A stretch of 64,000 nt of DNA from Prauserella cavernicola (GTDB taxonomy: Bacteria > Actinomycetota > Actinomycetes > Mycobacteriales > Pseudonocardiaceae). Below the pieces are notes generated by a model. That model saw only the letters and a program-made list of their open reading frames with translations. It made no database searches and had not been told where the DNA came from. Made by a program: the position numbers and the translations under genes. The stretch spans positions 930,001-994,000 of the forward strand of contig NZ_JAENJH010000002.1 in NCBI RefSeq assembly GCF_016595675.1, read 5' to 3'. This document shows positions 9,269 through 48,858 of this stretch, piece by piece (positions within the stretch are counted from its first letter, which is position 1; each line of letters begins with the position of its first letter).

Positions 9269-10258
9269 TCAGACCTGCTGCAGGGCCTCGCCAAGGAGTT
9301 CCAGGGCGACCTCCGGTTCGGGGCCGAGTTCGCCGCTGAACGACACCGCGTCGAACCCGGCCTCGCGCCAGCGCTTGAGCCCGGCCACGAGGTCGCTCAG
9401 GTCACCCGCCGCCATGAACAGGTCCAGCGTGCGGTCGCTGATCTCGGCGAGGCGCTCGGTCTGGCCGTCGCGCGTCGCCGCGCGGGCCGCGTCCACCTCG
9501 GCCTGCGGCACGTCGTGGAACTTCAGCAGCGGGCCCAGGTGCGGCAGGAACGTCGCCATGATGCGGCGCGCGCCCTGGCGGGCCAGCTCGCGATCGGGGT
9601 GCACGTAGGTCCAGTTCTCCGCCACGAAGTCCACGTCGGACGGCGCGCGGCCGGCCTCCTCGGCTCCTGCGTGGAGTTCCTTGCGCAGCATCGTTGCGTA
9701 GGCGGGGTCCCACTGCGCGGCCAGGCGCAGACCCTCGCAATGCGCGCCCGCGAGCCGTGCGCCCTTCGGACCGTGCGCGCCGAGGTACACCGGGACGCGG
9801 CGGCCCGTGCCGAAATGCAGCTTGGCCGACTTGCCCAGCTTGAAGACGTCGCCGTGGTACTCGGACCCGTCGCCCGTAATGACCGCGCGGATCACGTCCA
9901 CGGCCTCGCGCACGCCCTTCAACGTGGACGGATTGGTCTGGCCCACCAGCTCGTACATCGAACCGCGGCCGATGCCCAGCACGGCGCGTCCACCGGAGAG
10001 CTCGTCGAGGTGCGCGACGTTCGCCGCGATCTGCACGGGGTGGCTCAGGTAGGGATGCGTGACGTTCGGCCCCACCTGGATGCGCGACGTGGCGCGCGCG
10101 ATGTCGCACAGCACCGGCCACACCGGCCTGCGCAGCAGGACGTCGTGCACCGTGACGTCCTCGAAGCCGAGCTCCTCGGCCCTCGCGGCGACGGCCGGGT
10201 AGGTCTCGATCGGCAGATTTCCGTGCAGCTGCAGCAGATAGCGCATGGGTGTCGTCAC
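9269..10258 (-). CDS. LLM-class flavin/F420-dependent oxidoreductase
   Basis: 329 residues. The GTG start at 10258 overlaps the stop of the upstream gene (GTGA). The luciferase-like barrel is recognised from the N-terminal ARAEELGFEDVTVHD, then VAHLDELSGGRAVLGIGRG and a C-terminal domain ending in a dimer helix. Family members oxidise or reduce alcohols, hydropyrimidines or saturated bonds with F420 or FMN. I cannot decide the cofactor from the sequence. An internal ATG at 10246 is an alternative start. It forms a two-gene operon with the dehydrogenase. Confidence 0.88.
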   Translation of the reverse strand: MTTPMRYLLQLHGNLPIETYPAVAARAEELGFEDVTVHDVLLRRPVWPVLCDIARATSRIQVGPNVTHPYLSHPVQIAANVAHLDELSGGRAVLGIGRGSMYELVGQTNPSTLKGVREAVDVIRAVITGDGSEYHGDVFKLGKSAKLHFGTGRRVPVYLGAHGPKGARLAGAHCEGLRLAAQWDPAYATMLRKELHAGAEEAGRAPSDVDFVAENWTYVHPDRELARQGARRIMATFLPHLGPLLKFHDVPQAEVDAARAATRDGQTERLAEISDRTLDLFMAAGDLSDLVAGLKRWREAGFDAVSFSGELGPEPEVALELLGEALQQV

Positions 10259-11319
10259 GCCGCGAGCATAGTCATGCCCTCGCGGGCCTTCCGGCGGAGT
10301 TCGTCGGGGTCCTCGGTGCCGAGCGAGTGTGGAGTCCGGCCGGTGACGAGCAGGTCCTCGCCCAGCGCGGTGCCCACCAGCGTGAGGATCGCGGCGCCGA
10401 CCGGGGCCTCCACGCCGGCGAGCCGGGCGAGCGCCACGTTGAACGCCAGGCCGCGTCGGATGTCCTCGTGGACGTAGCGGTGGTCGATGGTCACCGACTC
10501 GCGCCAGAGGTCCGAGGCCAGCAAGCGCGCCTTCGCGTCCGGCGGGTACATCGAGGTGTCGCGGCCCTGGTAGTAGTCCTCCAATGGCCAGTGCGGGTCG
10601 CCGAAACCGAGTGCCCTGCGCAGCGCGATCCGCTCGGTGTCCAGCGCGCGCGTGGTGGCGAGCACCGACGGCGAACTGCCCTCGGCGTGGATGTCGAACC
10701 GCTCGGCGAGCGACTCGATGGCGCCGAGGTTGTGCGCGATCAGCGGCGGGTGGATCACCGGCCCCCAGTTGCTCAGCGCGGCGTCGAGCCCGTCGCTCAC
10801 GCGCACGGCCATCGGGTACGCGGCGGCGAAGCGGGCGTGCGCGTCGTCGGCGAGCGCGCCGGTTCCGGGGATGGAGCCGACGGGCAGGCGGCCGGAGATC
10901 ACCGGGATGCTCACCTCGCCGGGCGCGGTGACCCTGGTGAGGTAGGGCAGCGTGCCGGTCTCGAGGAAGGCGACGTCGGGCCTGCGGAGCGCGCCGAGCC
11001 AGGTGCCGAACGTGCCCGGCGTGAACGCGACGGCCTGGCCGGGCGCGAGCACGGGCGTGAGCGCGTCGAGCAGCTCGGTCTGCACGGTGGCGGGTACGGG
11101 CGCGACGATCAGGTCGCTGCCCTCGACGGCGGCGCCGAGGTCGTGGGTGGTCAGCGCGGCGGTGACCTCACCGGAGTCGTCGTGGGTGCGGTACCGCAGG
11201 CGGCCACCGTCGGGGAACTTGGCTCCGCGCCGCCACCAGCGCACCTCGTGCCCGCCGAGGCACAGGTCCACCACCGCCGCGTGTGATCCGTTCCCGCCGC
11301 CCAGCACCGTGACGATCAC
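10255..11319 (-). CDS. Opine/ketopantoate-type NAD(P)-dependent dehydrogenase
   Basis: 354 residues from GTG 11319, with GGAGG about eight bases upstream on the coding strand. The Rossmann start is VTVLGGGNGSHAA, and the helical C-terminal domain (NWGPVIHPP to DHRYVHEDI) is that of the octopine/nopaline dehydrogenase family. Such enzymes form or break C-N bonds between a keto acid and an amine, or reduce keto acids. It is translationally coupled to the LLM oxidoreductase. The two may act on one metabolite in succession; whether that belongs to the aromatic pathway opposite is unknown. Confidence 0.85.
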   Translation of the reverse strand: MIVTVLGGGNGSHAAVVDLCLGGHEVRWWRRGAKFPDGGRLRYRTHDDSGEVTAALTTHDLGAAVEGSDLIVAPVPATVQTELLDALTPVLAPGQAVAFTPGTFGTWLGALRRPDVAFLETGTLPYLTRVTAPGEVSIPVISGRLPVGSIPGTGALADDAHARFAAAYPMAVRVSDGLDAALSNWGPVIHPPLIAHNLGAIESLAERFDIHAEGSSPSVLATTRALDTERIALRRALGFGDPHWPLEDYYQGRDTSMYPPDAKARLLASDLWRESVTIDHRYVHEDIRRGLAFNVALARLAGVEAPVGAAILTLVGTALGEDLLVTGRTPHSLGTEDPDELRRKAREGMTMLAA

Positions 11320-11862
11320 CCGCGTACCTCCAAGCCGGTAGGGACTCCTGCGCCCGCAGTAGACAACCCCGCCGAGCCCGAATCAACCCCCGAAGTCCAC
11401 TCACCAAACCCACCCCGCGCCCAAGCAACCCACGCCCAACCCCGCGAGTCCCCCGCCCGGGCGCGCGAGTCCCCCGCTCCGGCGCGCGAGTTCCCCGCCC
11501 GGGCCCGCGAGTTCCCCGCTCGGGCGCGCGAGTTCCCCGCTCCGGCGCGCGAGTTCCCCGCTCGGGCGCGCGAGTCCCCCGCTCGGGCGCGCGAGTCCCC
11601 CGCTCCGGCCCGCGAGTCCCGCTCCCGGCCGCGAGTCCCCCGGTCCGGCCCGCGAGTCCCGCACTACGGGCCGCGAACTCCCCACCCGAGTCCCGCTCCG
11701 GCAACCCCGGCAGCCCCGGTCACCCGACCGCAAGTCAGCAGCCCGAACCAGAGCCCTCCGGGCACACCTGACGACCGACCTCCCCCGCGATCTTGACCGT
11801 GTTCCCACAACACACGTTCCAGTGAGGCGGAAACCGCAGGCAAGACCGATCTGGGAGTGGAC
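11320..11862. other. Gap holding a 21-bp repeat array and the peptidase upstream region
   Basis: There is no convincing gene. Bases 11441-11690 are the tandem array described separately. The rest is the divergent upstream region of the dehydrogenase (left) and of the exported peptidase (right), where GGGAG at 11853-11857 serves the ATG at 11863. Frames crossing the array give only seven-residue Arg/Gly/Pro/Glu repeats and are not credible proteins. Confidence 0.7.
11441..11690 (+). repeat. 21-bp tandem array 1 (about 12 units, forward orientation)
   Basis: The motif CGCGAGTYCCC recurs at 11443, 11464, 11485, 11506, 11527, 11548, 11569, 11590, 11611, 11630, 11651 and 11672, that is every 21 bases with one 19-base step. 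The unit reads roughly CGCGAGTCCCCCGCTCCGGC plus one base. Variation sits at a few positions (C/T at base 8, C/G near base 18). The last two units are degenerate. There are no spacers between units. It lies upstream of the exported peptidase gene, and the same unit in reverse orientation lies downstream of that gene. Confidence 0.95.
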
Positions 11863-13359
11863 ATGAAACGACAACGCAGCGCGGGCAGAGGCCTGGCGGT
11901 GCTGGCCGTACTCGGGCTGTTCGGCACGCTGGCCACGGCCCCCGCGACGGCCGACGAGGGCAGCGCACCCACGGCGCAGGTCGAGTGGGGCGAGTGCCCG
12001 GAGGACACCGTGGCCGCGGCCGCGCCGACCGTCCTGCAGTGCGCCACCGTGCCGGTGCCACTGGACTACGCCGACCCGGACGGCAACCGGATCGACATCA
12101 TGATCTCCAAGCTGGCCAGCCAGAACCCGGACAAGCGGCGCGGCGTGCTGATGCTCAACCTGGGCGGCCCCGGGAGCCCGGGGCTGTCGCTCCCCGCGGA
12201 CCTCGTCTCCCGTGGAATCCCCGCGAGCGTGCTGGACAGCTACGACCTCATCGGTATGGACACCCGCGGAGTCGGGCACTCGGCTCCGGTGAGCTGCCGC
12301 TTCACCGCCGATCAGGACTATGGCGCCAACATCCCGCCGTACGCGGTCGACGACGCGGCGGTGCTCGAACAGGCCAGGATCGCCGAGTCGGTGGCCGAGC
12401 AGTGCGCGCGCAACGACGACGACGGGCGCCTGCGCCACCTGACGACGGCGAACACGGCCCGTGACCTGGACCGGATCCGCGCCGCGCTCGGTGAGGAGAA
12501 GGCCAGCTTTTTCGGGCTGTCCTACGGTTCGGCGCTGGGTGCGGCGTACGCGTCGATGTTCCCCGACACCTCCGACCGGGTCGTGCTCGACAGCAACATC
12601 GGCGACACCGCCCTCGGCCAGGAAGGCATGCGCAGGTTCGCGCTGGGTATGGAGGAGACCTTCCCCGACTTCGCGAAGTGGGTCGCCGAGCGGCACGGCA
12701 GCTACGGCCTCGGCCGGACGCCCGCACAGGTGCGCGACACCTACTTCGAGCTCGCCGGGCGGCTGGACGAGCAGCCCGTCGCGGGGCTGGACGGCGGCAT
12801 GTTCCGGTTCGGCACCCTGGTGAGCCTCTACGGCGAGTCGAGCTATGCCGCGATGGCGCAGCTCTGGCAGTCGCTGGACACCTACGACGTGGACGCCGTC
12901 AAGGCACAGCTCGACGCCGACGAGTTGGCGCCCGCCGACAACAACTGGTCGGTGTTTCTCGCGGTCACCTGCAACGACAGCGAGTGGTCCGAGGACGTCG
13001 ACACCTACCGGCAGGCCGTAGCCGAGGACCGCGAGCAGTTCCCGCTGTTCGGCGCGGCCAGCGCGAACATCTCGCCCTGCGCGTTCTGGCCGCACGAGCC
13101 TGCGGAGCCTCGCGTGGAGATCACCGACGAGGGGCCGAGCAACGTGCTGCTCGTGCAGAACCAGCGCGACCCGGCGACCCCGCACGTGGGCGCGGAGATG
13201 CTGCGCGAGGAGTTCGGCGACCGGTCCCGGTTGCTGAGCGTCGACGGCAGCGGCCACGGCGTCTACGTCTTCGGCGACAACCCGTGCGCGTCGAACGTGA
13301 CCACGCGCTACCTGGTCGACGGCGAGATGCCGGCGAGGGACAAGTTCTGCCGGGCGTGA
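11863..13359 (+). CDS. Secreted S33 tripeptidyl aminopeptidase-type hydrolase
   Basis: 498 residues from ATG 11863 (a GTG two codons earlier overlaps the ribosome site). A signal peptide with a hydrophobic core ends near APATADE. The triad is visible: S220 in GLSYGS, D436 in NQRDPATP and H465 in GSGHGVY; the oxyanion strand is LNLGGPGSPG. C-terminal cysteines, as in KFC at the end, fit the extracellular disulfides of the SlpD/Tap group. These enzymes trim short peptides from the N-terminus outside the cell. It stands alone between two 21-bp repeat arrays and a hairpin. Confidence 0.93.
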   Translation: MKRQRSAGRGLAVLAVLGLFGTLATAPATADEGSAPTAQVEWGECPEDTVAAAAPTVLQCATVPVPLDYADPDGNRIDIMISKLASQNPDKRRGVLMLNLGGPGSPGLSLPADLVSRGIPASVLDSYDLIGMDTRGVGHSAPVSCRFTADQDYGANIPPYAVDDAAVLEQARIAESVAEQCARNDDDGRLRHLTTANTARDLDRIRAALGEEKASFFGLSYGSALGAAYASMFPDTSDRVVLDSNIGDTALGQEGMRRFALGMEETFPDFAKWVAERHGSYGLGRTPAQVRDTYFELAGRLDEQPVAGLDGGMFRFGTLVSLYGESSYAAMAQLWQSLDTYDVDAVKAQLDADELAPADNNWSVFLAVTCNDSEWSEDVDTYRQAVAEDREQFPLFGAASANISPCAFWPHEPAEPRVEITDEGPSNVLLVQNQRDPATPHVGAEMLREEFGDRSRLLSVDGSGHGVYVFGDNPCASNVTTRYLVDGEMPARDKFCRA

Positions 13360-13429: not shown

Positions 13430-13525
13430 GGTGAGTCGGGAGCGTGCGACTCGCGTGCCAGAGCGGGGGACTCGCGTGCCAGAGCGGGGGACTCGCGCGC
13501 CGGAGTGGGGGACTCGCGCGCTGGC
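13430..13525 (-). repeat. 21-bp tandem array 2 (four units, reverse orientation)
   Basis: ACTCGCG recurs at 13449, 13470, 13491 and 13512, exactly 21 bases apart. The unit is the reverse complement of that in array 1 (GGGGGACTCGCGYGCC). Together the two arrays bracket the exported peptidase gene as inverted blocks. Confidence 0.92.
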
Positions 13526-13548: not shown

Positions 13549-14046
13549 CTACCCTGCTGAGTTCGGCTTTTTCGGTGGCAGCACGGATTTCTTGGTGCGC
13601 ACCGTCGCCTCGATGCTCACCGTCAGGAAGCGCTCGATGATCCGCCGCTCCTCGGGCCCGAACTCGGTCCAGGTGCGCGCGAACTCCTCGCCGAGCGGCG
13701 TGAACAGCCCGCGGGCGAGCTCCAGCGCCTGATCCTCGACGTGCAGTTCGACGCGCCTGCGGTCGGCCGCGCTGCGGGTGCGGTGCACGTGGCCCGCCGA
13801 CTCGAGCCGGTCGAGCAGCGACGTCGTGGCCGAGGCCGACAGGTGCAGCGCCTCGGCGAGTTCGCCGGGGCTCGGTGCGTGGCCCTGCGTCCTGGTGGCG
13901 TCCATGATCACGGCGAGCGCGTTGAGGTCCGTGCGGTGCATGCGATGGGACTGTCGCAGGATCTCGACGAACTCCCCGTTCTCCACGGTCAGCTGGCGCA
14001 GTAGCCGGATCAGCACGCCGTCGCCGGGCGCTTGCTCCGATGTCAC
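13549..14046 (-). CDS. MarR-family transcriptional regulator
   Basis: 165 residues from GTG 14046, which has GGAGGAG nine bases upstream; an ATG at 14079 has no such site. The winged helix is recognised by LAEALHLSASATTSLLDRLESAGHV followed by the wing RTRSAADRRRVELHV. It is divergent from the MMPL exporter across under 100 bases that hold two short inverted repeats. It is therefore probably a repressor of that exporter and of itself. Ligand unknown. Confidence 0.92.
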   Translation of the reverse strand: MTSEQAPGDGVLIRLLRQLTVENGEFVEILRQSHRMHRTDLNALAVIMDATRTQGHAPSPGELAEALHLSASATTSLLDRLESAGHVHRTRSAADRRRVELHVEDQALELARGLFTPLGEEFARTWTEFGPEERRIIERFLTVSIEATVRTKKSVLPPKKPNSAG

Positions 14047-14094
14047 GTTTGTCTCACTCCTCCAGTTTGCCGCCTCCATCTACCCAGCTTAGTA

Positions 14095-38315: not shown

Positions 38316-38511
38316 TCAAATGGGTTCTCGGTTGGTGTTCCGGAAGTACCCGTTGAGCTGGTCGGCGACGTCTCTTCGGATGTCCTCCGTCACATGCATG
38401 TACCGCGCTTCGTCTCGGTGGTGGACCGCCACATCATGTCCACGACGGTCCGGTCGGGCCCCCGAGGATCAGCAGCACGGTCGCGGCCGGGTGGCGCGCG
38501 TCGTGGAGCCG
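38316..38511 (-). pseudogene. C-terminal remnant of a tyrosine recombinase (integrase)
   Basis: Read on the minus strand and joined across two frameshifts, the sequence gives RLHDARHPAATVLLILGG, then PDRTVVDMMWRSTTETKR, then YMHVTEDIRRDVADQLNGYF and a stop at 38316. This is the end of a phage-type integrase, with the H-x-x-R box (HDARH) and the nucleophile Tyr at the start of YMHV. The rest of the gene is absent. It lies 64 bases from tRNA-Phe, a usual integration target, so it is probably the scar of a lost island. Confidence 0.82.
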
Positions 38512-38546
38512 GGCCTATCGCACGTCGTGGAGCCGGGCCTATCGCA
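38499..38546. repeat. 24-bp tandem duplication
   Basis: The unit that begins CGTCGTGGAGCCGGGCCTAT is repeated exactly once in tandem, at 38499 and 38523. It sits at the upstream edge of the integrase remnant and adds to its decay. Confidence 0.85.
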
Positions 38547-38635
38547 CGTCGGCTTCGGTGAGGGAGTGCGCCACTCCTCGTAGTCGGCGGACTGGAGTCG
38601 ACCTTGTCCCACCCGCCCACGTGTCCGGGGGCGGG

Positions 38636-45903: not shown

Positions 45904-46905
45904 TCACCTCGTGAGGCGCGTCGAGGCCCTGACCACCAGTTCCGGCTCGAACACCACCGTCTGCCGCTCGGGGACGCGCTCACTCTCTCCGGTTTCGGCG
46001 ATCAGCAGTTCGGCCGCGGCCTTGCCGAGCCGTCTGGCGGGCTGGCGGACCGAGGTCAGCGGCACCGCGGCGGCGCCGGCGAACTCGATGTCGTCGTAGC
46101 CCACGATCGCCAGTTCGTCGGGCACGCGCACGCCCGCGGCCACCATGCCCTGCAGCACGCCGAGCGCGAGCAGGTCGTTGGCGCAGAACACCGCGGTCGG
46201 CCTCGGGCTCATGCCGAGTAGTCGCGCTGCCGCGTCGCGGCCGGAGGCCACGTCGAGCTCGGAGGTCTCCAGCACCGACAACCTCGCGGCGGAGGCGTCG
46301 AGCACCGAGCGCACGCCCGCCTCGCGGTCGCGGCACTGCGCCAGGATCGCGGGCCCGTTGACGAACGCGATCTCCGTGTGTCCCGTCTCCACCAGGTGCC
46401 GCGCCGCGAGAGCTCCGCCGGTGACGTCGTCGACGGACACGGAACTGGCCTCGTCAGCGGGCACCCTGCGGTCGACGAAGACGTACGGGATCTCGCTGCG
46501 CCGGAACGTCTCCAATGCGGCTCCCGAGGTGTCGACCGGGCTGAGCAGCACACCGCGCACCCGCTGCTCGGCGAGCATGGACAGGTACGACACCTCGCGC
46601 TCGGCCTGGTGGCCGCTGTCGCACGTGATCACGTGCAGGCCCTCGTCCTGCGCGGTCTCCTCGGCGCCGCGGGCGATATCGACGAAGAAGGGGTTGCCGA
46701 GGTCGAGCACGAGCAGTGCCATGATGCGACTACGGCCTGCGCGCAGCTGCCGGGCGGACTCGTCGCGTACGTAGCCGAGCTCTTCGATTGCCGAGAGGAC
46801 CCTCGCTCTGGTGCTGGCCGAGACCACCTGCGGGCGGTTGACGACGTTGGACACCGTGCCGATCGAGACCCCGGCGCGACGCGCCACGTCCTTGATGCCG
46901 ACCAT
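45904..46905 (-). CDS. LacI-family transcriptional regulator
   Basis: 333 residues from ATG 46905. The helix-turn-helix IKDVARRAGVSIGTVSNVVNRP and hinge RVLSAIEELGYV are typical, followed by a sugar-binding-type ligand domain (LLVLDLGNPFF to IVGYDDIEFA). It closely resembles the second LacI protein at 47848, so the two are probably paralogues. A TGAAACGATTCA site lies 43 bases upstream and probably serves for self-repression. Its sugar is unknown; it may act on the rhamnose operon or on genes outside the window. Confidence 0.93.
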   Translation of the reverse strand: MVGIKDVARRAGVSIGTVSNVVNRPQVVSASTRARVLSAIEELGYVRDESARQLRAGRSRIMALLVLDLGNPFFVDIARGAEETAQDEGLHVITCDSGHQAEREVSYLSMLAEQRVRGVLLSPVDTSGAALETFRRSEIPYVFVDRRVPADEASSVSVDDVTGGALAARHLVETGHTEIAFVNGPAILAQCRDREAGVRSVLDASAARLSVLETSELDVASGRDAAARLLGMSPRPTAVFCANDLLALGVLQGMVAAGVRVPDELAIVGYDDIEFAGAAAVPLTSVRQPARRLGKAAAELLIAETGESERVPERQTVVFEPELVVRASTRLTR

Positions 46906-46947
46906 GTGTCCCCTCGGTGCCGAACTCGCCGTACCGTACCACCGCCG

Positions 46948-46959
46948 TGAAACGATTCA
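46948..46959. promoter_or_regulatory. LacI-type operator
   Basis: TGAAACGATTCA differs by one base from the perfect palindrome TGAAACGTTTCA found before the rhamnose operon. It lies upstream of the LacI gene that ends at 45904. Confidence 0.65.
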
Positions 46960-47032
46960 TGCGCGGCTGGCACGGTCACCGCAGTTGGCGCGGCCGCGCC
47001 GCCGCCGATCGAGCGTGATTCGGGAGTCAAGC

Positions 47033-47044
47033 TAATACGTTTCA
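47033..47044. promoter_or_regulatory. Possible LacI-type operator half-site
   Basis: TAATACGTTTCA keeps the right half of the TGAAACGTTTCA operator. It stands directly against the start of the repeat array. Confidence 0.4.
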
Positions 47045-47047
47045 ACC

Positions 47048-47420
47048 CGCGAGTCCCCCGCTCCAGCGCGCGAGTCCCCCGCTCCGGACCGCGAGTGGCG
47101 CGCTCAAGCCCGCGAGTTCCCCATTCAGGCGTGCGAGTCCCCGCTCAAGCCCGCGAATCCCGCACTCCCGACCGCGAGTCCCGCACTCAGGCGCGCGAGT
47201 CCCGCACTCAGGCGCGCGAGCCCTCGCGAGTCCCCCGCTCAGGCACGCGAGTCCTGCGCTCCCGACGGCGAGTCCTGCGTTCCCGACCGCGAGTTCTTCG
47301 CTCGGGCGTGCGAACTGCGCGTTCGAGCTCGGGAGTTGTGCGCTCTTGGTCGCGAGTCGTGTGTGGGCGTGGGTTCCACGCCGGAGACGCGAGTTGTGCA
47401 CTCGTGGCCGCAGGTTGCTC
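47048..47420 (+). repeat. 21-bp tandem array 3, left arm (about 17 units, forward)
   Basis: CGCGAG or close variants recur at 47048, 47069, 47090, 47111, 47132, 47152, 47173, 47194, 47215, 47246, 47267, 47288, 47309, 47330, 47351, 47388 and 47409, mostly 21 bases apart. Units drift from CGCGAGTCCCCCGCTCC on the left to CGCGAGTTGTGCACTCG near the middle. Orientation is that of array 1. Confidence 0.93.
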
Positions 47421-47540
47421 GGCTCCGGTTCCGAGGGTGTGGTTCGGACGGCGTGGAGTGCGGGGTGTGGTGATTCGGATCGGAACCTGCCCTCCGGGGC
47501 GGGCAAGTCGTGAACCCCGGCCGGCGGGCGGAGGGTGAGC

Positions 47541-47840
47541 CGCGGGACTCGCGCGTCGGAGTGCACGACTCGCGGTCGAGAGCGCACGATTCGCAAACCG
47601 AAGTGCATGACTCGCGATCTGGCGTGCACGACTCCTGGTTGGAGTGTGCAACTCACGTGCGTGAGCGGGGGACTCGCGCGCTCGAGTGCGCAACTCACGT
47701 GCCTCGGCGGGGGACTCACGTGCCTCGGCGGGGGACTCGCGCGCCCGAGTGGGGGACTCGCGTGCCTGAGTGCGCAACTCGCGTGCCTGAGTGCGGGACT
47801 CGCGCGCTGGAGCGGGGGACTCGCGCGTTCGGGTGCGCGG
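47541..47840 (-). repeat. 21-bp tandem array 3, right arm (about 14 units, reverse)
   Basis: ACTCGCG or close variants recur at 47547, 47568, 47589, 47610, 47631, 47651, 47672, 47693, 47714, 47735, 47756, 47777, 47798 and 47819. All steps are 21 bases except one of 20. Units are the reverse complement of those in the left arm, so the arms face each other across about 120 bases. The array stops just before the end of the rhamnose LacI gene. Confidence 0.95.
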
Positions 47841-47847
47841 CTTGCTT

Positions 47848-48858
47848 TTATTCGGGGGTTGTGGAGTCTCTGGTTACCAGTTCTGGTTTGAACATCACTT
47901 GTTGGTGCGCGTGCGTTTCGGGGTTGTCGCACTCCTCCACGAGCAGTTGCGCCGCCGCCCTGCCGATCTGCTGCGTGGGCTGGCGGATCGACGTGAGCGG
48001 CACGGCCGCGTCGGCGGCGAACTCGATGTCGTCGTAGCCGACGAGCGCGAGGTCGCCCGGCACCCGCCTGCCCGTGGACAGCGCGGCACGCAGGACACCC
48101 AGCGCCATGAGGTCGTTGGCGCAGAACGCGCCGGGCGTGTCGTCGCCGTCGGCGAACCTGGCGCGCGCGAGGTCGTGGGTGCTGCGGGCGTTCATCACCG
48201 GCACCTCCACGACCTCCACCGCCTCGTCGGGGTCGAGGCCCGCCGACGCGACCGCGCGCCGGAGCCCGGTGAGTCGGTCGGCGCACTGGCTCAGGTTCGG
48301 CGGGCCGGAGTAGTAGACGATGCGCTCGTGGCCCTGCGCCACCAGGTGCGCGCCGGCGAGCTCGCCGCCCGCGACGTCGTCCACGGCCACCGAGCAGCAG
48401 TTCACCCTCGGGTCGTGCCGGTCGACCAGCACGGCCGGGGTGCCGCGCCTGCGCAGCGCGTCGAGCCGGTCGGAGCTCACCTCGATGGGCGTGATCAGCA
48501 CGCCGCGCACGCGCTGTTCCTCGAGCACCTGCAGGTAGCGGTTCTCGCGGGCGGTCTGGTCGTCGGAGTTGCACAGCACCACCGCGTAACCCAGCTCGTC
48601 GGCGACGTGCTCCACGCCGCGCGCGACGTCGTGAAAGAACGGGTTGCTCAGGTCGAGCACGATGAGGCCGAGCGAGCGGCTCGTGCCCGCGCGCAGTTGC
48701 GCCGCCGAGGAGTTGCGGACGAACCCGAGCGTCGAGATCGCCGACAGCACCGCGGCGCGCGTGTTCTCCGTGACGCGTTCGGGATGGTTGAGCACGTTGG
48801 AGACGGTCCCGACGGAGACTCCCGCGCGGACGGCTACGTCCTTGATGCTCGGCGACAT
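47848..48858 (-). CDS. LacI-family regulator, probable rhamnose repressor
   Basis: 336 residues from ATG 48858. The DNA-binding part is IKDVAVRAGVSVGTVSNVLNHP and the ligand domain runs from LIVLDLSNPFF to LVGYDDIEFAADAAVPLTSIRQP. It is divergent from the rhamnose operon across 216 bases. TGAAACGTTCA lies 20 bases upstream of its start and TGAAACGTTTCA lies before the operon, so it probably represses both. The inducer is expected to be rhamnose or a pathway intermediate. Confidence 0.93.
   Translation of the reverse strand: MSPSIKDVAVRAGVSVGTVSNVLNHPERVTENTRAAVLSAISTLGFVRNSSAAQLRAGTSRSLGLIVLDLSNPFFHDVARGVEHVADELGYAVVLCNSDDQTARENRYLQVLEEQRVRGVLITPIEVSSDRLDALRRRGTPAVLVDRHDPRVNCCSVAVDDVAGGELAGAHLVAQGHERIVYYSGPPNLSQCADRLTGLRRAVASAGLDPDEAVEVVEVPVMNARSTHDLARARFADGDDTPGAFCANDLMALGVLRAALSTGRRVPGDLALVGYDDIEFAADAAVPLTSIRQPTQQIGRAAAQLLVEECDNPETHAHQQVMFKPELVTRDSTTPE

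Follow-up and report, generated by a model that had tools for sequence, protein, structure and literature searches.

The array and its flanking genes

In the genome of Prauserella cavernicola, two LacI-family genes on the minus strand border a tandem array with a 21-bp period, which runs in two mutually inverted arms. Period and inversion were found with TRF and with a repeat search of the window, the whole stretch of 64,000 nucleotides that was analyzed. The features of the locus are as follows, together with another two arms that the repeat forms elsewhere in the window.

11443 to 11666, plus strand: further arm of the repeat, 11 called units, on the start side of the gene at 10255-11319
13440 to 13518, minus strand: further arm of the repeat, 4 units, 30 nt from the stop of the gene at 13549-14079
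45904 to 46905, minus strand: first LacI-family gene (Pfam), its start 142 nt from the left arm
46947 to 46961, no strand: GTGAAACGATTCATG, upstream of the first lacI gene, identical in P. cavernicola (G000) and the relatives G001 and G002
47032 to 47045, no strand: CTAATACGTTTCAA, upstream of the first lacI gene, identical in the same three genomes
47048 to 47403, plus strand: left arm, CGCGAGT-N5-RYTC units with a 21-bp period
47404 to 47537, no strand: centre separating the two arms, with one extra degenerate reverse unit at 47497
47538 to 47825, minus strand: right arm, outer loops CCCCC, inner loops CGTGC/CATGC
47848 to 48858, minus strand: second LacI-family gene (Pfam), its 3' end toward the right arm

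In a unit scan, the forward units span 47048-47403 and the reverse units 47538-47825, with a gap of about 134 bp; counted by eye in register, degenerate units included, there are about 17 forward and about 14 reverse units. In the repeat search the arms (47044-47142 and 47731-47829) are 86% complementary. The loops of the left arm are CCCCC mostly in the outer units and CCTGC, TCTTC and TGTGC in the inner ones, and the inner loops of the right arm belong to the dominant dialect of the relative G001. The outer end of the right arm lies 22 nt from the lacI stop codon. GTGAAACGATTCATG and CTAATACGTTTCAA are, by their look, what we take to be operator-like elements, that is, candidate sites.

An earlier note on this DNA had described a two-armed 21-bp array of about 30 units between LacI genes, and TRF, the repeat search, the unit scan, and Pfam bear this out. 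As the note had also claimed, the array is noncoding and keeps its period; it is real and intergenic. The note knew of no named element of this design, and we likewise found no Rfam match for the array at E values up to 1 and no description of the repeat in open-licence PMC papers.

The arms at 11443-11666 and 13440-13518 flank, and face each other across, a predicted alpha/beta-hydrolase (TAP-like) gene at 11899-13359. An unrelated short tandem repeat with a 24-bp period lies at window positions 38486-38551.

A repeat family of the Pseudonocardiaceae

The unit is CGCGAGT-N5-RYTC-N5 with a 21-bp period; the frame is common to the genomes that carry it, and the N5 loop varies. Besides the source genome G000 and the Prauserella relatives G001 and G002, the comparison included G003 from the same genus and G137 from another genus. 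A two-unit CCCCC-type pattern with at most 2 mismatches gave 80 + 62 matches in G000 and its reversed-pattern control gave none, so chance is excluded. The spacing between units in G000 is 21 bp in 387 cases, the next most frequent being 20 bp with 8 cases. Arms occupy at least 46 gaps of G000, 44 in the fetched loci and two more at loci from a looser search.

The strict pattern, CGCGAGT-N5-RCTC twice, occurred in 12 of 150 Pseudonocardiaceae genomes (6 of 46 genera) and in a single one of 396 genomes sampled from the phylum, that of P. cavernicola itself; across these two samples no genome outside the Pseudonocardiaceae showed the repeat. With GAGT and RYTC alone fixed, a three-unit pattern matched 19 of the 150 family genomes (10 of 46 genera), some of the single matches among them being possibly unrelated (G148:C147 resembles a different repeat). 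Among the three-unit matches listed, the free bases ahead of GAGT still read mostly CGC. Exact two-unit matches in a named collection, from which own-genome records are possibly absent, came from Prauserella endophytica and P. shujinwangii.

Two candidate identities were rejected. The right arm had no match in phages or plasmids at an E value of 1e−5 (BLAST, low-complexity filter on) and the two-unit pattern none in viral contigs, which speaks against carriage by phages or plasmids. A CRISPR array does not fit, since the 5-nt spacers and 5-nt loops recur across units and arms and are thus not unrelated sequences.

Arms are placed between genes and point into the gap

The search for the unit in the genome and its relatives that the earlier note had proposed was run, and position, orientation, and flanking genes were tabulated; loci of G001, G002, and the other genomes came from among the matches listed, not from whole genomes, and genes were called by a codon-usage script, not by annotation. 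The repeat is neither absent from relatives nor scattered inside genes, the two outcomes that the note had named against a functional array: relatives carry arrays, and none of the 74 placed G000 arms lies in a predicted gene. By the nearest-gene criterion, 70 of these 74 point inward. Two-armed gaps have a forward arm followed by a reverse arm in 29/29 cases in G000, 16/16 in G001, 28/30 in G002 (the remaining two carry an extra arm), and 2/3 in G003. The order is reversed in both two-armed gaps of G137; at these loci (L158 and L159) the reversed arms stand back to back, 5 bp apart, and each keeps its position-8 polarity (see below). Arms of fewer than three or four units were left out of the polarity, arm-pair, and two-armed-gap/stop-distance analyses and of part of the ortholog analysis.

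Among the 185 outermost arms of G000 to G002, 100 begin, in sense, no more than 15 nt past a stop codon; another 37 are stop-side at a greater distance, and 48 are start-side. Over all genomes except G137, the 152 stop-side arms start at a median of 7 nt past the stop, and the 50 start-side arms lie at a median of 88 nt from the gene start. In other genera, starts this close to a stop were seen in 7/9 arms of G051, 7/11 of G054, 4/8 of G030, 2/8 of G137, and 1/3 of G086; in G003 they were seen in 2/8.

The tally of gaps, which leaves out arms without a called neighbor and low-score 2-unit arms, comprises 125 gaps: 59 convergent, 60 tandem, and 6 divergent. Both arms are present in 39 of the convergent gaps, one arm in 19, and three arms in 1. 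After normalization, 19 of the tandem gaps have only the arm at the upstream gene's stop, 33 have both arms, 6 have only the other arm, and 2 are odd. Altogether, 47 of the 125 gaps are single-armed. In Prauserella the arms face each other because either side of a gap can carry one. The 21-bp array is one member of a family of polar tandem arms in the Pseudonocardiaceae; each arm has its 5' end toward a gene, and its units run into the gap.

Each arm is an element of its own

Is a pair of arms in one gap a single palindrome? In G000, arms of the same gap are no more alike than shuffled pairs (identity of.758 versus.756 at all positions, compared from the outer end). The spacers of same-gap arms are even less alike than in shuffles (.434 versus.512 in G001 and.498 versus.538 in G002, outer end); in the outer and inner comparisons, 98.9 to 99.9% of shuffles reach or exceed the observed value. 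Perfect palindromes may be selected against. Since sharing a gap does not make two arms more alike, the cruciform reading is removed, and the arm, a separate polar element, becomes the unit of analysis. At the RNA level, three units fold with −3.1 to −4.1 kcal/mol (z of −1.0 to +0.94), and arm RNAs beat shuffles clearly in one of four arms (L150, z of −2.5); an RNA hairpin per unit was rejected on these grounds. The large cruciform or hairpin that the earlier note had suggested as a purpose of the array was thus lost to the arm-shuffle test and the RNA folds.

History of the locus

G001 and G002 have an additional gene at this locus, between the first lacI gene and the left arm, which is absent from the window.

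L086:3199-4140 and L085:2755-3696: alpha/beta hydrolase gene (Abhydrolase_3) in the relatives, convergent with the second lacI gene

The last 39 nt of the hydrolase gene, including its stop codon, are array units (L086:4102-4140 and its L085 counterpart), and the arm may have overwritten the end of the gene in the relatives. CTAATACGTTTCAA lies upstream of the hydrolase gene in G001 and G002; in the window the left arm begins 2 nt past it. The gene that faces the second lacI gene in G003 is a different one, which has a styrene-monooxygenase substrate domain; a sense arm of its own lies 11 nt past its stop. The simplest reading of these alignments would be that the hydrolase gene was lost in P. 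cavernicola and its arm left as an orphan; alternatively, the gene was possibly gained in the other lineage. The two-armed form that the earlier note described is in part the product of a gene that is present in two relatives and missing in the window. The orphan reading fits the left arm at 47048-47403. It was rejected as a general rule for start-side arms, 11 orthologous arm pairs being start-side in both species.

Loop dialects differ between genomes that share the same sites

The 39 G000 loci and most G002 loci were picked by the CCCCC-type pattern, and their loop counts lean toward CCCCC. An unbiased comparison of dialects is given by whole-genome counts of this pattern against a loop-free pattern. 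The CCCCC-type pattern matched 2 + 2 times (4) in G001, 84 + 92 times (176) in G002, and 80 + 62 times (142) in G000, and the loop-free pattern 171 + 187 (358), 188 + 131 (319), and 94 + 72 (166) times, respectively. Further dialects occur in G003, G051, and G137.

Of 41 places in G000 (39 loci and two window regions, with the L038 pairing included), 31 correspond to a place in G001 or G002 that also carries at least one arm; the direct search of the relatives covered all places but L008, L018, L019, L024, L031, L037, and L039, and the partner of L008 came from the fetched loci. Ortholog counts use a stricter same-place rule, by which L010/L137 and L034/L102 are not the same place and the outer flank of L015/L132 is not orthologous. 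This rule fixes the stop or start kind by construction, so the 11 start-side pairs show persistence of start-side arms, not agreement of kind. Flank identity is mostly 80 to 90% between G000 and the other two genomes and mostly 90 to 95% between G001 and G002. At window position 11443 (G001 L125) and at L017 (G002 L112), synteny with a relative is kept on just one of the two sides of the array, so that arms may sit at rearrangement breakpoints.

In 16 orthologous arm pairs of G001 and G002, the G001 units have GTRC loops in 68/89 and xxCCC loops in 11/89 cases, and the G002 units in 8/94 and 74/94 cases, respectively. Loops of another dialect sit toward the inner end: in G000 they occur in 24/130 units of the inner two positions versus 3/130 of the outer two, and in G002 in 17/136 versus 2/136; the difference in G001 (17/68 versus 8/68, p = 0.075) is not significant. 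Aligned nonloop identity of orthologous G001-G002 arms is.752, versus.671 for random pairs, and G000 arms align with their G001 or G002 orthologues no better than random. The units of orthologous arms have mostly turned over. Where units of G001 and G002 match well (18 units, with about 5 expected by chance), the loop is the same in 3, and likewise in 3 of 7 units with identical nonloop positions; the loops differ, for example, in three units in a row of L135/L101 and in unit 2 of L165/L166. Part of the loop change seems to occur in place, judging from these small numbers. Local duplication occurs as well, since adjacent units in G000 are more alike in their loops than units from different arms (.757 versus.656).

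Polarity within the arms and a probable mutation trail outside them

The arms are also polar at position 8, which is C in the gene-facing unit and mostly T in the innermost unit. T8 was found in the first versus the last unit in 1/65 versus 39/65 arms of G000, 1/34 versus 18/34 of G001, and 3/68 versus 44/68 of G002. The trend from C8 to T8 extends to G003, G051, G137, G054, and two of three arms of G086; it was seen in none of five arms of G030. Unit 1 is C-rich in G000 (.51 C,.29 G).

Outside the arms, the G000 flanks are rich in A and C and poor in G and T. Read toward the array, the adjoining 30 nt contain A.20, C.46, G.25, and T.10 at 48 stop-side arms and A.23, C.47, G.20, and T.10 at 21 start-side arms. 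The bias is seen at third codon positions (the first bin includes the stop codon) and has faded by about 100 to 150 nt. Array genes of G000 end with TAA in 26/46 cases versus 1/32 control gene ends (Fisher p = 4e−7); the TAA shares of array genes and controls hardly differ in G001 (.17 versus.14) and G002 (.15 versus.10), the controls being drawn from the same loci (n = 32, 14, and 31). At 27 reciprocal gene ends, G000 and G002 differ at.225 of sites in the last 30 nt and at.11 to.13 beyond 150 nt, with a lean toward G>A (43:10), T>C (8:1), C>A (36:18), and G>C (35:20). In the comparison with G001 (11 ends), G>A leads by 25:5; between G001 and G002 (9 ends) it stands at 6:1, numbers too small to judge. 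A lean of C over G in the first 30 nt also appears in G051, G054, G086, and G030 and fades by 30 to 60 nt; the trail is strong only in G000.

We read the flank skew as the result of a mutation process at the outer boundary of the arm, because its sign follows the array and not the direction of the gene. A sense RNA (Rho-like) as the cause of the A+C-rich flanks is weakened by the same skew outside start-side arms, where this strand is antisense. Pure cytosine deamination is insufficient alone, as C>A and G>C lean as well.

What maintains the arms?

The explanation that we favor, and hold about as likely to be right as wrong, is a REP-like, largely self-maintaining family of arrays that is renewed at its gene-facing end. 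New units or loop versions would enter mainly there, with other arms as their source and ectopic recombination, gene conversion, or templated copying as the mechanism. One loop dialect would thereby spread through the genome, and older dialects would survive at the inner ends. DNA transactions would recur at the gene-facing end and leave behind a trail of strand-asymmetric mutations that reaches as far as about 100 nt, and growth of the arm would halt where a coding sequence or promoter begins. The conserved CGCGAGT and RYTC blocks could be recognized by the copying machinery or by a bound protein. A self-maintaining repeat is favored by the low occupancy of gaps, the patchy distribution, the turnover of dialects, start-side arms that persist, and the trail at the boundary. 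The explanation is further supported by the inward orientation, the genome-wide dialect, the other-dialect loops in inner units, the position-8 polarity, and the independence of the arms, and further by the flank trail on both stop and start sides, the TAA excess, and the directional changes against G002 and G001. The earlier note had listed a parasitic repeat among its options; that part of its interpretation has become the leading reading, and its interpretation as a whole is supported only in part. Another of its options, a protein bound along one face of the DNA, may also prove right.

Several results count against this explanation. No copying enzyme was identified, and no Y1 transposase was found in 20 genomes. 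Arms shared in place at 31/41 sites and a core common to several genera are features that would not be required of a purely selfish repeat. Also against the explanation are the nonsignificant inner excess in G001, a flank trail that is strong in G000 alone, the reversed arrangement in the two two-armed gaps of G137, and the lack of position-8 polarity in G030.

We rank second, as possible and on the whole doubtful, a role of the arms as boundaries at gene 3' ends. A sequence-specific protein bound on every second helical turn would block or terminate RNA polymerase as it leaves the gene or, in another form of this tentative proposal, a C-rich sense RNA would bring about factor-dependent termination, and facing arms would insulate the gap from both sides. 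The sense placement of arms directly after stops, in G000 to G002 as in G051, G054, and G030, favors such a role, together with sites kept across species and the fixed 21-bp spacing; the C-rich unit 1, the core common to genera, and the make-up of the 125 gaps (59 convergent, 60 tandem, and 6 divergent) agree with it. However, arms occur in few gaps (at least 46, or about 0.7% provided that the gene density of the window, 56 per 64 kb, holds), presence in the Pseudonocardiaceae is patchy, start-side arms exist (48 of 185 in G000 to G002) and persist between species (11 orthologous pairs), the flank skew is independent of gene direction, and starts close to stops are few in G003, G137, and G086.

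Ordinary slippage of a tandem repeat, tolerated in gene-poor spaces at gene ends and nowhere else, would explain why neighboring units resemble each other more than they resemble units from other arms, yet slippage alone gives neither one dialect in dozens of dispersed arms nor inward orientation nor starts after stops; the dialect agreement points away from it as the sole cause, and we consider it quite unlikely. A palindrome whose arms pair in DNA or RNA, the hairpin being the functional form, would suit the mutual inversion of arms in nearly all two-armed gaps and centres between facing arms that can shrink to 9 to 13 bp, but it is largely refuted by the arm-shuffle test, by spacers that are less alike in G001 and G002, by 47/125 single-armed gaps, and by folds not above shuffles in three of four arms, and we give it hardly any credence.

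As for the favored self-maintaining repeat, we speculate, with clear reservations, that it rewrites itself at a fixed end: an activity at the gene-facing boundary of each arm would install the current loop dialect of the genome in dispersed arms, partly by an exchange of the 5-bp loop in place, mutate the adjoining 50 to 100 nt in a strand-specific manner, and convert stops to TAA.

In these arrays, the concerted evolution of dispersed repeats becomes tractable in a bacterium. G001 and G002 have arms in the same places with different dialects, and this pair lets the spread of a new repeat version over a chromosome be tested directly. The one-sided trail around the arms points to a localized DNA transaction, for which no precedent in the literature is known to us. 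The Pseudonocardiaceae are known for antibiotic producers, and should the arms also act on 3' ends, this family would possess a novel type of gene-end element.

Comparison with known systems

The repeat resembles REPs and BIMEs, which are short, dispersed, oriented intergenic repeats in many copies, in that none of 74 placed arms is intragenic and 44 gaps of the fetched G000 loci carry arms. E. coli REPs often lie 1 to 20 nt past the gene end, according to excerpts from PMC12306157. Unlike REPs, the present repeat forms tandem 21-bp arms with inward polarity and genome-specific loop dialects and has no strong unit hairpin. The REP-associated Y1 tyrosine transposase (PF01797) was found in 0 of 20 genomes, 12 of them array-bearing (4 of the genus and 8 others, all by the strict pattern except G003), and in 5 of 14 known genomes used as a positive control; the REP-transposase model was rejected on this result. 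Membership among the REPs fails because there is neither the transposase nor a stable unit hairpin. Hence, the repeat works somewhat like a REP and is not filed as one.

The DNA uptake sequences of Neisseriaceae are a dispersed repeat with species-specific versions, as stated in excerpts from PMC3630211. The 21-bp repeat shares with them species-specific dialects of a common core; uptake sequences are single sites, and the present units form tandem arms in gaps.

In foldback elements, inverted ends made of tandem repeats face each other across a centre. Our facing arms look similar; they are, however, independent, single arms are common, and coevolution of the arms as complements is contradicted by the arm-shuffle test. 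Mycobacterial MIRU repeats are likewise actinobacterial, intergenic, tandem, and near stop codons. Compared by description only, they agree with our arms in this placement and differ in their longer units. Eukaryotic rDNA terminators are oriented tandem sites directly behind genes that are bound by TTF-I or Reb1. The 21-bp arms are like them in standing in oriented tandem behind genes and unlike them in being bacterial and dispersed.
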